NCBI RefSeq assembly: GCF_030913635.1
Contig: NZ_CP133188.1
Location: 2,852,001 to 2,916,000 of the forward strand
Length of the DNA: 64,000 bases
Source of the DNA: Sedimentibacter sp. MB35-C1
GTDB taxonomy: Bacteria > Bacillota > Clostridia > Tissierellales > Sedimentibacteraceae
Direction of reading: 5' to 3'
Shown in pieces: positions 10,399-52,718 of the stretch (positions within the stretch are counted from its first letter, which is position 1; every line of letters begins with the position of its first letter). Position numbers and translations under genes: made by a program. The notes under the pieces were generated by a model, which saw nothing but the letters and a program-made list of their open reading frames with translations, did no database searches and was not told where the DNA came from.

Positions 10399-12921
10399 TT
10401 ATTCCAATTCAAACGTCTTAATTGAATTAATCTCTAATTGCTGAACTACATTATCATTTTGCTTAACAACATTATCAATCAAAACATTTAGAACAGAATT
10501 TGACGCAACCGGCTTCACATTATAGGTTAAAGTATAAATATTATTTGCGCTTGTCAAAGAATCAAGGCTATTAAAGTCATTAAACGGCCCTCCGACTAAG
10601 TTGTCTTCTTGATCATACAGCATGAAGTCTGACAATATAAAGTCATCTGCATCTCCTGTAAATGATACACTGATTTTATCTACATTCTGTCCGTTCTGAA
10701 ACTTAAATCCAAATCTATATTTTATCCCCATAACAACCTCAAAAGGCTGTAAACTGTTACCTATAGGCTTTAATTCGTTTTGTGCGTACATTGAGTTTTT
10801 TTGTAATATATTATCAAAAACTATGCTGCTGTCTCTTTCATAATAAAAATTGATAGTTACGTTGTTGCTTCCTGCCTGCCCAGTCAGTCTTCTCCCTACT
10901 TTGAGCGGATTTATAATGCCTTCATAGCTAATATCAATCAAATTATACCCGGTTAATGATGGAGCAATTTCATCAATAAAACCATTATTCGGTAAATATT
11001 TATTAATTGATGTAGCTCCGTTTATCGATAATGCTCTATTCTTGTCGTCAAGGGTTTCGTAGTAATTTATCGTTAGTTTAACATCTGGTTTAGGATTGAC
11101 AATCACATTAACCTTTTTTTCGATTATCTGAGAAGTACCCTCAATTATATTTTTTGGATCAGTGTTACTGCTTATTGTAAAATATACAATATAGCTAAAT
11201 TTGTCTTCAGCATAATCATGAGGTTGCGGAACATAAGTAATTTCAGTATTATCAGAATTAGCTGTTGCAGTGCTGTTAGGCTTAACTGGTTTTTCATCAA
11301 CTTTAATTTTTAAATCACTTATTTGATAATCAGATCCTGCATCATTTGCAAATATCAAGTCCGGCGGAGTAATAACAATGCTTTCTCCTTCGGTTGTATA
11401 ATAAACATATTCAGCTATATTTGGAGCAACTATGGCAAGCGGATTTTCAAATTTTTCTTCTGTAATCACATTTGGAGTTAAAACATGTTTATATTCAATT
11501 TGAGCATCTTCATTTGCATACTTAATTCCATAGTTTTCACCTACATACCTAATTCTGACTGTTTTCAATGATTCTGATGCAGTTATTGATCCAAGTTCAC
11601 ATGACATAACACCTTCTTCAGACACCGTTACCCCTTCTGGTAAAGATTCTTGTACAAATTCAAAACTTTCCGGCAATATATCAGTAATAACTGAATTAGT
11701 AGCTATAGTGTCAATTATAGTATCTGCGATTATATCATATATGTTAGTTAAATCATTTGCAGTTGTCGCATGATAGTAAGCCTCTTGGTAAGTATTTTCT
11801 GACGGGTTTAACAACGCCTGCATGTCAGATGTATTGGTTGAAGCAAATCCAACAGTATATATTTTAACTCCACTTCCACCATAGTTCTTTAATAAATTTG
11901 CTTCAGAAATGGCTGCATCTTTGGCATTTATATCATATGAATTACCCTTGCCATCAACTTCACCGTTTATATTGTAATACTGAGTTGGCACACCATCGGT
12001 CATATATATAACATACCTTTCGGCTCCCATTCTGAAAGATGTACCAAATAATTCTCTTGCCTTTATGAAGCCGGCCTCACTATTCGTTCCTCCGCTAACC
12101 ATATCTTCAAAGTTCTTATACGCATTCTTGGCAGCAGTTTTATCAGTTGTAAATGCCTGCTTAATCTGCGCTTCATCAGAATATGTAACTATTGCAACTC
12201 TGTTGTTACCCGATTGGTTAGTTGCAAGAACCGCATCTATAAATCTGTTCGCCGCTTCCTCGAGAACATCTGCTTTTGATTCCCTGCCACTAATATTATC
12301 CTCCATACTTCCTGATTTATCCAGCACAAGTATTATATCGGCATCTTTACCTTTTGTAATAGCCTCACCTTGTACAGAGAATTTCAAATCAAATTCATTT
12401 GGCTTACCATTTACAGGTTCAACTGTTTTATTAAACTCAATATCACCGCCGCTCGTATTTGTATTAACATAACCTAAATCGTTATGTTTTTCTTCTACAA
12501 ATATTTTCAATGTCTTTGTTGTACTGCTCAGCAGTTGAATATTAAGAGTGTTAAGACTGGAAGTAGTGCTTGTATCAATCTCCTTGCTGCTTCCTTTCCA
12601 TAACTCAATACGATTCAAATTATAGCTGCTTTCTAACGTAAGTGAGGAATCTCCAGGCTGACTGCTGTAAGAAATTACTGTTTCTTCAACATATTGACTT
12701 TCTACATACTCGCCTTCGTTATTTTTTATATATGTTTTTATTAGTAATTTATAATTGCCATTTGAATTTCTTTCTTTATTTGTTCTAAGCACCCAAATGT
12801 TTGAATACGTATCGTATTCTTTGTCTGATGTTCCGGCCTCGGCCTCAAAATTAAGCAGTGCCGGAGCTATTATAATCATTGCTGCCAGCAAGAAGAATAC
12901 TTTTAAAAATATTTTTTTCAT
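10399..12921 (-). CDS. Secreted VWA-domain protein, candidate pilus-tip adhesin
   Basis: An 840-residue exported protein. Residues 1-28 form a signal peptide (MKKIFLKVFFLLAAMIIIAP, then ALLNFEAEA). A von Willebrand A domain spans roughly 192-390 with a complete metal-ion-dependent adhesion site: DKSGS at 201-205, Thr279 in GGTNSEAGF and Asp309 in YMTDGVPT. A beta-rich region follows (around 390-600, DUF11/Ig-like in feel), then a MucBP-like segment (LTINYYETLDDKNRALS ... VTINFYYERDSS) and a further beta domain. There is no LPxTG motif and no transmembrane tail. Position between a giant PilX-like pilin and a PilJ-like pilin suggests a tip-located adhesin carried by minor pilins, comparable in role to PilY1 or to VWA pilins of Gram-positive T4P. 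Its ligand is unknown. Confidence 0.8.
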   Translation of the reverse strand: MKKIFLKVFFLLAAMIIIAPALLNFEAEAGTSDKEYDTYSNIWVLRTNKERNSNGNYKLLIKTYIKNNEGEYVESQYVEETVISYSSQPGDSSLTLESSYNLNRIELWKGSSKEIDTSTTSSLNTLNIQLLSSTTKTLKIFVEEKHNDLGYVNTNTSGGDIEFNKTVEPVNGKPNEFDLKFSVQGEAITKGKDADIILVLDKSGSMEDNISGRESKADVLEEAANRFIDAVLATNQSGNNRVAIVTYSDEAQIKQAFTTDKTAAKNAYKNFEDMVSGGTNSEAGFIKARELFGTSFRMGAERYVIYMTDGVPTQYYNINGEVDGKGNSYDINAKDAAISEANLLKNYGGSGVKIYTVGFASTNTSDMQALLNPSENTYQEAYYHATTANDLTNIYDIIADTIIDTIATNSVITDILPESFEFVQESLPEGVTVSEEGVMSCELGSITASESLKTVRIRYVGENYGIKYANEDAQIEYKHVLTPNVITEEKFENPLAIVAPNIAEYVYYTTEGESIVITPPDLIFANDAGSDYQISDLKIKVDEKPVKPNSTATANSDNTEITYVPQPHDYAEDKFSYIVYFTISSNTDPKNIIEGTSQIIEKKVNVIVNPKPDVKLTINYYETLDDKNRALSINGATSINKYLPNNGFIDEIAPSLTGYNLIDISYEGIINPLKVGRRLTGQAGSNNVTINFYYERDSSIVFDNILQKNSMYAQNELKPIGNSLQPFEVVMGIKYRFGFKFQNGQNVDKISVSFTGDADDFILSDFMLYDQEDNLVGGPFNDFNSLDSLTSANNIYTLTYNVKPVASNSVLNVLIDNVVKQNDNVVQQLEINSIKTFELE

Positions 12922-51604: not shown

Positions 51605-51624
51605 GGGAGGGCTTACGCCCTCCC
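51605..51624. terminator. Terminator between converging genes
   Basis: GGGAGGGC, loop TTAC, GCCCTCCC: an 8-bp GC-rich stem. A T-rich run follows on the minus strand only, so it chiefly ends the transglutaminase-like gene. Confidence 0.6.
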
Positions 51625-51630
51625 ATGCAT

Positions 51631-52500
51631 TTAATATTCATATTTTTTTGTGTAATATTTTGAATCTATTAGTTTGTTCGTCTGTTCTATAACCCTAGGA
51701 CTATTGGATTGTTTCGCTGTCGAAGCAATTGTCGAATCCATAAGCTTCCAATGTTCTCCGTCAAAATACATCTCATTTAAGGTTATCCACCCTGTTTCTT
51801 CTGTATAAACTTCATTCCAAGCGTGGTATGCGCTTAAATTTGACGAATACCCAGTTACAAGCTTTGTAGGAATTGATTGTGATCGAAGCATGGCTGCCAT
51901 TACAGACGAATAATCAAAGCATATACCCTTATTACTTTTAAGTATCTCATCCGGAACAGGAAGATACCCGCTCTTTACTGTCTTTGCCTTATCGTTGTCG
52001 TATACAATGTTTGAAATTACATAATCATATATAACATCTACTTTTTCTATATCTGTTGCTTTCCCTTCAGTAAGCTCCTCTGCTTTTTTTGCAGTGTCAG
52101 ATTCGTCTGAATAATTCACCATTTGATTTGATACTAAATATGGAGCATTTGGATCAGTTAACTTAACATCAATACTTATGGTCTGTTTCGTAGCATATTT
52201 GTTTGAACTAATGTTTTCAAACACTTTGATCTTATACTTTCCGTCTCCCATCTGAAGTGGAAATGTATCATATTCTCCTTTATTGTTTAAGTCATATGTA
52301 TATTGCTCAGATTCTTTTTCAATTATTACCTTAAGCTTTTTTGTAGTTTCATCTAAATATCTTACTTTTATATAGCCATCAGCAGAATCCGATACATCAA
52401 TTTCCGATTTTGATCCTTTGTACAAATCTTCACCATATGCAGCAGATGAAAAAGCAATTATCATAATCAATGAAATAATCAATATTCTTAATATTTTCAT
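51631..52500 (-). CDS. Secreted transglutaminase-like cysteine protease/transferase
   Basis: A 289-residue exported protein. A signal peptide (MKILRILIISLIMIIAFSSA) ends near Tyr22-Gly23. An N-terminal beta domain (about 30-120) precedes the transglutaminase-like core. The catalytic triad is clear: Cys194 in NKGICFDYSSVMAAML, His226 in AYHAWNEVYTEE and Asp255 in WKLMDSTIAS. Such proteins may act as proteases, amidases or cross-linking enzymes at the cell surface. Its leader carries a class I c-di-GMP riboswitch, so expression depends on that second messenger. It is a single-gene unit. Confidence 0.9.
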   Translation of the reverse strand: MKILRILIISLIMIIAFSSAAYGEDLYKGSKSEIDVSDSADGYIKVRYLDETTKKLKVIIEKESEQYTYDLNNKGEYDTFPLQMGDGKYKIKVFENISSNKYATKQTISIDVKLTDPNAPYLVSNQMVNYSDESDTAKKAEELTEGKATDIEKVDVIYDYVISNIVYDNDKAKTVKSGYLPVPDEILKSNKGICFDYSSVMAAMLRSQSIPTKLVTGYSSNLSAYHAWNEVYTEETGWITLNEMYFDGEHWKLMDSTIASTAKQSNSPRVIEQTNKLIDSKYYTKKYEY

Positions 52501-52551
52501 AGCTCGTCAACTCCTGTATGTAGGCCTTTTCATATTCAATGGCATAGAAAA

Positions 52552-52575
52552 AGCTTTGCTGGAGACAGCAAAGCT
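52552..52575 (-). terminator. Riboswitch-controlled terminator
   Basis: On the minus strand AGCTTTGCTG, loop TCTC, CAGCAAAGCT, then TTTTTC. The first arm (extended to TAGCTTTGC) can also pair with GCAAAGCTA in the aptamer core at 52641-52649, which would give an alternative antiterminator. Confidence 0.85.
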
Positions 52576-52599
52576 AACAATCATAAATGTACCAACGTA

Positions 52600-52676
52600 C
52601 AGCAACTGGCTGTCATACCATTTTCATGGGTTAGACCCTATAGCTTTGCGCCATTTCCTTTAGAAAATTTTGCCTA
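52600..52676 (-). ncRNA. Cyclic-di-GMP-I (GEMM-I) riboswitch aptamer
   Basis: Read on the minus strand the sequence has, in order, GGCAAA, a hairpin ATTTTC-TAAA-GGAAAT, the core GGCGCAAAGC, the segment TATAGGGTCTAA, a hairpin CCAT-GAAA-ATGG, and ACAGCCAGTTGC. These are the conserved blocks of the GEMM-I class in the correct order. The core has GGCGCAAAGC where GACGCAAAGC is most common. A tight terminator lies downstream and a TTGACA/TACTAT promoter upstream. Confidence 0.88.
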
Positions 52677-52689
52677 TTTAATTAAGTTA

Positions 52690-52718
52690 ATAGTATCATA
52701 CCCTCATATGTTTGTCAA
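52690..52718 (-). promoter_or_regulatory. Promoter of the riboswitch and transglutaminase-like gene
   Basis: On the minus strand TTGACA (52718-52713), 17 bases, TACTAT (52695-52690). The start of transcription would fall about 8-10 nt before the aptamer. Confidence 0.75.

Follow-up and report, generated by a model that had tools for sequence, protein, structure and literature searches.

A predicted c-di-GMP OFF switch on a secreted transglutaminase-like enzyme of Sedimentibacter, and its possible antagonism of riboswitch-induced surface adhesins

What would a bacterium gain by placing a secreted transglutaminase-like enzyme under the control of a riboswitch for cyclic di-guanosine monophosphate (c-di-GMP)? 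The question is raised by a locus of Sedimentibacter sp. MB35-C1 located in a stretch of 64,000 nucleotides (the window; G000:C1:2852001-2916000 of a 3.62-Mb genome) and read on the minus strand between 52718 and 51631. An earlier reading made from the letters of the window, here called the sequence-only reading, described at this locus a promoter, a c-di-GMP-I (GEMM-I) aptamer, a terminator and a gene for an exported protein with a Cys-His-Asp triad, predicted an OFF switch and proposed that the enzyme releases surface adhesins. The observation itself is confirmed by the computational analysis presented here, and the interpretation is partly supported. On balance we lean towards the explanation that a class-I c-di-GMP OFF switch governs a secreted transglutaminase-like cysteine enzyme that antagonises, by cutting or releasing them, surface adhesins governed by ON switches. 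Loci and genomes are cited by L and G numbers where they have to be told apart.

The covariance model RF01051 matched positions 52684-52598 of the minus strand over its full length (model positions 1-87), scoring 78.0 bits where the cut-off is 35 (E 1.2e-13 in the 64 kb, both strands), which places the RNA in the c-di-GMP-I class and makes c-di-GMP its probable ligand. An intrinsic terminator with a stem of 10 base pairs and a loop of 4 nucleotides (AGCTTTGCTG at 52575-52566, TCTC, and CAGCAAAGCT at 52561-52552, followed by a T-run) begins 22 nucleotides past the aptamer end, without any overlap. The switching strand TAGCTTTGC (52576-52568) is complementary to the aptamer core GCAAAGCTA (52649-52641), as the sequence-only reading had pointed out. 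When the leader was folded without the terminator 3' arm, the 5' arm paired with this core through 9 base pairs, an antiterminator 8.5 kcal/mol better than the free arm, and once the 3' arm was included the fold favoured the terminator. Among 150 shuffled 5' arms, 6 matched the observed pairing energy. A terminator outside the aptamer, with a 5' strand able to pair with it, is also the anatomy of Cd1, an OFF switch of Clostridium difficile. Because the 5' arm gains 8.5 kcal/mol on the core before the 3' arm exists, the leader's assignment as a transcriptional OFF switch is supported, the sign in vivo being read from these foldings. At low c-di-GMP the 5' arm would sit on the aptamer core, the terminator would be blocked and the enzyme made. 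When c-di-GMP is high, the ligand-bound aptamer would keep its core, the 5' arm would join the 3' arm and transcription of the enzyme gene would stop. A separate terminator was found in all 20 genus leaders examined, the exact motif GCTTTGC in 14 and the arm-core pairing before the 3' arm is made in 15. The shuffle test was extended to 19 leaders (150 shuffles each; L009, a near copy of L001, was omitted): the arm pairs with some part of the aptamer in 18, and the observed value was reached by 8 shuffles at most in 9 leaders and by 26-150 in the other 10. The pairing is weaker in some relatives than in the window leader.

The association of aptamer and enzyme is maintained in other genomes. 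The enzyme is present in 20 of the 25 genomes of the genus (E<=1e-10), with 21 proteins when the second copy in G015 is included, and a c-di-GMP-I aptamer lies directly upstream of 20 of them. In the exception, L026, the promoter remains together with an apparent decayed remnant of the aptamer. A search of 120 genomes of the order gave 38 enzyme rows from outside the genus, 33 with the aptamer just upstream (G123:C9, with two stops in its frame, is counted among them). Three of the five misses are long-form homologues of 434-471 amino acids lacking an upstream switch (L244, L245 and L249). The remaining ones are G090, a frame with four stops in a genome without an RF01051 match, and G035:C5, a weak and partial match; with these two set aside the count is 33/36. 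A wider comparison in Clostridia was carried out by a search of contigs. Among the best 80 of at least 576 confirmed stretches, an upstream c-di-GMP-I aptamer (model R1, E<=0.01) was found only in 8 loci of the genus (L124-L131, six named Sedimentibacter and two under other titles of metagenome-assembled genomes), and four more R1 matches, in L172, L186 and L188, are not upstream of the enzyme gene. Therefore, within these 80 loci the link is confined to one branch of the protein family and is not universal.

The gene (51631-52500, minus strand) encodes 289 amino acids, the first of which resemble a signal peptide. Transglut_core (PF01841) matched the protein with 87.7 bits against a cut-off of 23 (E 7.7e-25), and C194, H226 and D255 are invariant in two alignments, of 21 and 46 rows, both containing the window protein; the exported protein and its triad thus agree with what had been read from the sequence. 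The structure model (predicted local distance difference test, pLDDT, 88; predicted template modelling score, pTM, 0.84) gave matches to the transglutaminase-like fold, and the closest solved fold carries the annotation putative cysteine protease. These data support the view that the product is a secreted transglutaminase-like protein. A zinc metalloprotease of the PPEP-1 type was considered and discarded, as HExxH, the zinc site of PPEP-1, does not occur in the 289 residues. Among the matches listed, protein identity was 98% to a Sedimentibacter metagenome-assembled genome, 74% to S. hydroxybenzoicus DSM 7310 (a cultivable relative in which the switch accompanies the enzyme), 72% to S. saalensis and 71% to S. 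acidaminivorans.

The nature of the partner is suggested by the other aptamers of the genome, which holds four c-di-GMP-I matches. One of them (G000:C1:2849841-2849754, minus strand), 2.2 kb past the left edge of the window and about 55 kb from the enzyme leader, is the leader aptamer of a protein of 2262 amino acids (G000:C1:2842814-2849602, minus strand; L005:2814-9602) that starts 2.4 kb outside the window and contains VWA, GBS104-like Ig, Cna_B, InlB-like repeat and SLH domains. The terminator of this leader takes in the last 10 nucleotides of the aptamer (ddG -13.3), so that the ligand should prevent termination, that is, an ON switch: at low c-di-GMP the adhesin leader would be terminated, and at high c-di-GMP the adhesin would be made. 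Homologues of the N-terminal part of the adhesin are found in 12 of the 25 genus genomes, its own included, and the overlap of terminator and aptamer, the ON anatomy, is present in 12/12 of their leaders. Contig ends truncate most of the homologues. Only two could be read to the C-terminus, in G014 and in G009 (the latter across an assembly gap), and both carry SLH. In G014 both genes are adjacent: a VWA/SLH protein of 1756 amino acids (775234-780504, minus strand) follows an ON leader (780823-780735). Some 100 nucleotides past the stop of this protein come the OFF leader of the enzyme (775134-775051) and then the enzyme gene. Within the genus, 12 genomes hold enzyme and adhesin, none the adhesin only, 8 the enzyme only and 5 neither (one-sided p 0.024), evidence that is weak because several of these genomes are incomplete.

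The sequence-only reading had sought the partner among the pili or the VWA protein of the window (10399-12921), and this part has to be abandoned. Neither class-I nor class-II switches lie there (class II was searched in the window only, not genome-wide), an Rfam scan of the window gave no other c-di-GMP riboswitch, and the other c-di-GMP-I aptamers of the genome are located elsewhere. With no switch on these candidates and an ON switch on the 2262-residue protein, the best partner candidate lies outside the window, and this VWA/Cna_B/SLH protein is the most likely first target of the enzyme. The general idea of adhesin release has gained in substance from the ON-type switch on a giant surface protein, from the pair in G014 and from the genes near the enzyme in relatives; the cleavage itself is deduced from these arrangements.

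The gene neighbourhood outside the genus was studied in 35 loci (15 + 20, the first five of the 15 having been chosen for known or suspected further switches nearby). A protein of more than 900 amino acids adjoins the enzyme gene or is one gene off in 14 of them. These large neighbours were called surface proteins by eye from their ends, and five were run against Pfam: three contain SpaA (two also a collagen-binding domain), one InlB-like repeats and one DUF7507/DUF11 repeats. A c-di-GMP-I aptamer precedes the large protein itself in 4/14 loci (L226, L227, L230 and L229), with ON anatomy in all four. Sortases (PF04203) were searched in 38 genomes, 6 of the genus and 32 outside it. They were found in 24 of the 32, as a single one in 20 of these, and in 16/24 the distance from the enzyme gene to a sortase is about 10.5 kb or less; by our estimate, about 0.2 such genomes would be expected by chance. 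G045 holds a long-form enzyme together with a sortase and has no RF01051 match.

Outside the genus the expression platform is of another kind. The aptamer ends only a few nucleotides from the Shine-Dalgarno sequence, which is able to pair with bases just 5' of the aptamer. In 16 typed leaders this flank pairing was 13.75 for matched flanks and 11.6 (standard deviation 0.57) for permuted ones, a value reached in 1/2000 permutations; in the 27 distinct sequences of 32 leaders it was 13.0 against 10.7 (standard deviation 0.46), with 0/2000 permutations. Both sets overlap and the permutation test does not remove relatedness. With the Shine-Dalgarno sequence in the aptamer-closing helix, the bound aptamer should close the helix and block translation, again an OFF sign. 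The sign is hence predicted to be shared while the mechanism differs, by Shine-Dalgarno sequestration in other families and by transcription termination in Sedimentibacter.

Several observations weigh against the proposal. Five of the 20 genus leaders (L027, L022, L016, L023 and L015) do not form the arm-core pairing, and the full-length folds of L019 and L015 lack the terminator. The observed pairing value was reached by 150/150 shuffles in L022, 90 in L024, 59 in L023, 47 in L016 and 47 in L015, and L022 gains nothing unless 6 nucleotides of upstream flank are included (then -4.5 kcal/mol). Eight genus genomes hold the enzyme without this adhesin. Where a large neighbour exists, 10 of the 14 loci show no switch on it in the sequence covered, some of these genes extending beyond it. 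In L228 (G034) enzyme, surface protein and sortase are co-directional with no switch between the first two, which may share a transcript. In 11 loci (L240 and L251-L260) the enzyme gene lies between EF-G-like and clpC-like genes and no large surface protein adjoins it. Finally, the transglutaminase fold is also used by cross-linkers and isopeptidases. The 11 loci belong to family f5, with a c-di-GMP-I aptamer upstream of the enzyme in 11/11 (neighbour names by eye).

The weak arm energetics of some relatives, and the decayed leader of L026, would fit a switch that works in the ON direction or that has decayed and lost its effect, and sequence alone does not give the sign with certainty. Such a reading is nonetheless very unlikely, since terminator and aptamer are separate here but overlap in the 12 ON-type adhesin leaders, and the aptamer above the enzyme gene is kept across the order. 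As to the ligand, the window aptamer has G11, A38 and C83 at the ligand-contact columns of the alignment, which we take to be G20, A47 and C92 of Vc2. This G, with the A and the C at the other two contacts, makes it hardly to be expected that the aptamer senses 3',3'-cyclic GMP-AMP (cGAMP) instead, in spite of some aptamers of the order that have an A at the presumed position 20. Such an A is also seen in Sedimentibacter, in c-di-GMP-I aptamers that precede chemoreceptor-like genes and others (L038, L040, L061, L106, L049, L064 and L105). Two consecutive aptamers occur in six of the loci examined outside the genus; with the same assumed numbering, five of these tandem leaders (L211, L213, L214, L218 and L228) have A in the first aptamer and G in the second, so that the members of a pair may differ in the cyclic dinucleotide they prefer. 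In the remaining one, L209 (G026), both aptamers have G. Some leaders match RF03167 (c-di-GMP-I-GGC). A class-I GEMM RNA with G20A is described as binding cGAMP (PMC6274999).

Two further explanations accept the switch and change the enzyme. It could be a true transglutaminase, cross-linking or maturing the surface layer and serving the motile state for some other purpose, as the wider use of its fold would allow. This is unlikely, because OFF and ON anatomies point to antagonism where both are seen and the closest solved fold is annotated as a putative cysteine protease. Or it could cut isopeptide or wall bonds (peptidoglycan or sortase linkages) in place of the adhesin chain, for which isopeptidases of the same fold and the sortases near the gene could speak. 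This is rather unlikely: G014 holds the enzyme, its switch and the SLH-bearing adhesin, but PF04203 gave no match in this genome, which excludes a sortase bond as the target in general and leaves wall bonds as a possible one.

The best reading is that the enzyme antagonises c-di-GMP-induced adhesins as PPEP-1 does, from an unrelated family, probably by cleavage. Cells that settle, at high c-di-GMP, would turn the enzyme off and the giant adhesin on, which suggests that the enzyme frees cells from surfaces. More tentatively, with confidence somewhat short of even, these data may describe a third c-di-GMP system for the release of adhesins, one of independent origin, in which riboswitch-repressed proteases of transglutaminase fold strip riboswitch-induced, sortase- or SLH-anchored adhesins across an order of Clostridia, the control sign being kept and the mechanism differing between Sedimentibacter and other families. 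If true, the rule of C. difficile, by which c-di-GMP riboswitches turn the adhesin ON and the releasing enzyme OFF, would be a general design realised with unrelated enzymes, and a large, so far unassigned family of secreted transglutaminase-like proteins would gain a testable function. A predicted sign kept throughout the order while the platform mechanism changes would also show clearly how a riboswitch evolves when selection acts on its sign.

A sigma-70-type promoter (-35 TTGACA at 52718-52713, 17-nucleotide spacer, -10 TACTAT at 52695-52690) precedes the aptamer, as had been noted from the sequence, and TTGACA is kept at the same place in 16/16 relatives' leaders of sufficient length (18 looked at). 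AGGAG (52515-52511) is the Shine-Dalgarno sequence, and past the gene a hairpin GGGAGGGC/GCCCTCCC followed by TGAATTTTT (51605-51624, minus strand) is likely the terminator of a one-gene unit. By eye, the gene upstream of the 2262-residue adhesin resembles a GGDEF + HD-GYP protein, and the adhesin leaders of G000, G006 and G010 have, after the riboswitch terminator, a second hairpin-like element beginning GAACTCAACT. The remaining two aptamers of the genome lie above a flgB-like flagellar operon and above an exported protein of 130 amino acids (names by eye). The latter (L004, G000:C1:1254820-1254895) has flanks able to pair and a T-run after them, so that a terminator would form with the aptamer as its loop; the small protein of L004 has no Pfam match, and exported proteins of 127-165 amino acids also follow c-di-GMP-I aptamers in L071, L083, L096 and L105. 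ON-type c-di-GMP-I aptamers of the genus were seen above pilC-like and pilB-like genes (L085, L100), and above Tad-like and polysaccharide-chain-length-like genes (L070, L098, L084), all named by eye.

The platforms found here have known counterparts. Cd1, in the C. difficile flgB leader, is a proven class-I OFF switch in which the terminator (T+H) competes with the antiterminator (T+A) (PMC9262584). The Sedimentibacter leader shares with it the aptamer class and a separate terminator with a 5' strand pairing to the aptamer, but here the switching strand is directed at the core GCAAAGCTA inside the aptamer. The adhesin leaders have instead the anatomy of the pilM riboswitch of Geobacter metallireducens, an ON switch that senses cGAMP and has a terminator including the aptamer-stabilising strand (PMC9262584). 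The association of riboswitch and gene family is already published: one row of a 2025 survey table lists tandem c-di-GMP-I above COG1305 in Bacillota (p 1.08E-34; PMC12452182). It is the same broad gene family under the same aptamer class; the window has a single aptamer, and the row is silent on sign, mechanism, function and any partner adhesin (PMC12452182). In searches of the open-licence literature no paper was found on the function of the enzyme or its pairing with adhesins.

LapG of Pseudomonas is a transglutaminase-like enzyme that releases the adhesin LapA and is controlled by a c-di-GMP receptor protein, not by a riboswitch. The parallel with it, drawn by the sequence-only reading, stands for the related fold and fails for the family, since that of LapG, which we take to be PF06035, is absent from the three families matched by the window protein at E<=1. 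LapG differs as well in its mode of control and in acting in a Gram-negative periplasm. LapA is described as lost from the surface upon a fall in c-di-GMP (PMC3032545).

The closest relative in design is found in C. difficile, in which PPEP-1/Zmp1 is under a class-I OFF switch and the adhesins CD2831 and CD3246 under ON switches, with inverse control (PMC6366702, PMC6447587). In Sedimentibacter, too, a secreted enzyme under a class-I OFF switch and a surface adhesin under an ON switch are predicted, and the adjacent pair of G014 resembles CD2830/CD2831 (PMC6447587). PPEP-1 belongs to the zinc metalloproteases and its substrates are known, whereas the Sedimentibacter enzyme has a transglutaminase fold and a substrate proposed from its genomic context; and while the adhesins of C. 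difficile use class II, class-I aptamers would serve here for both signs.
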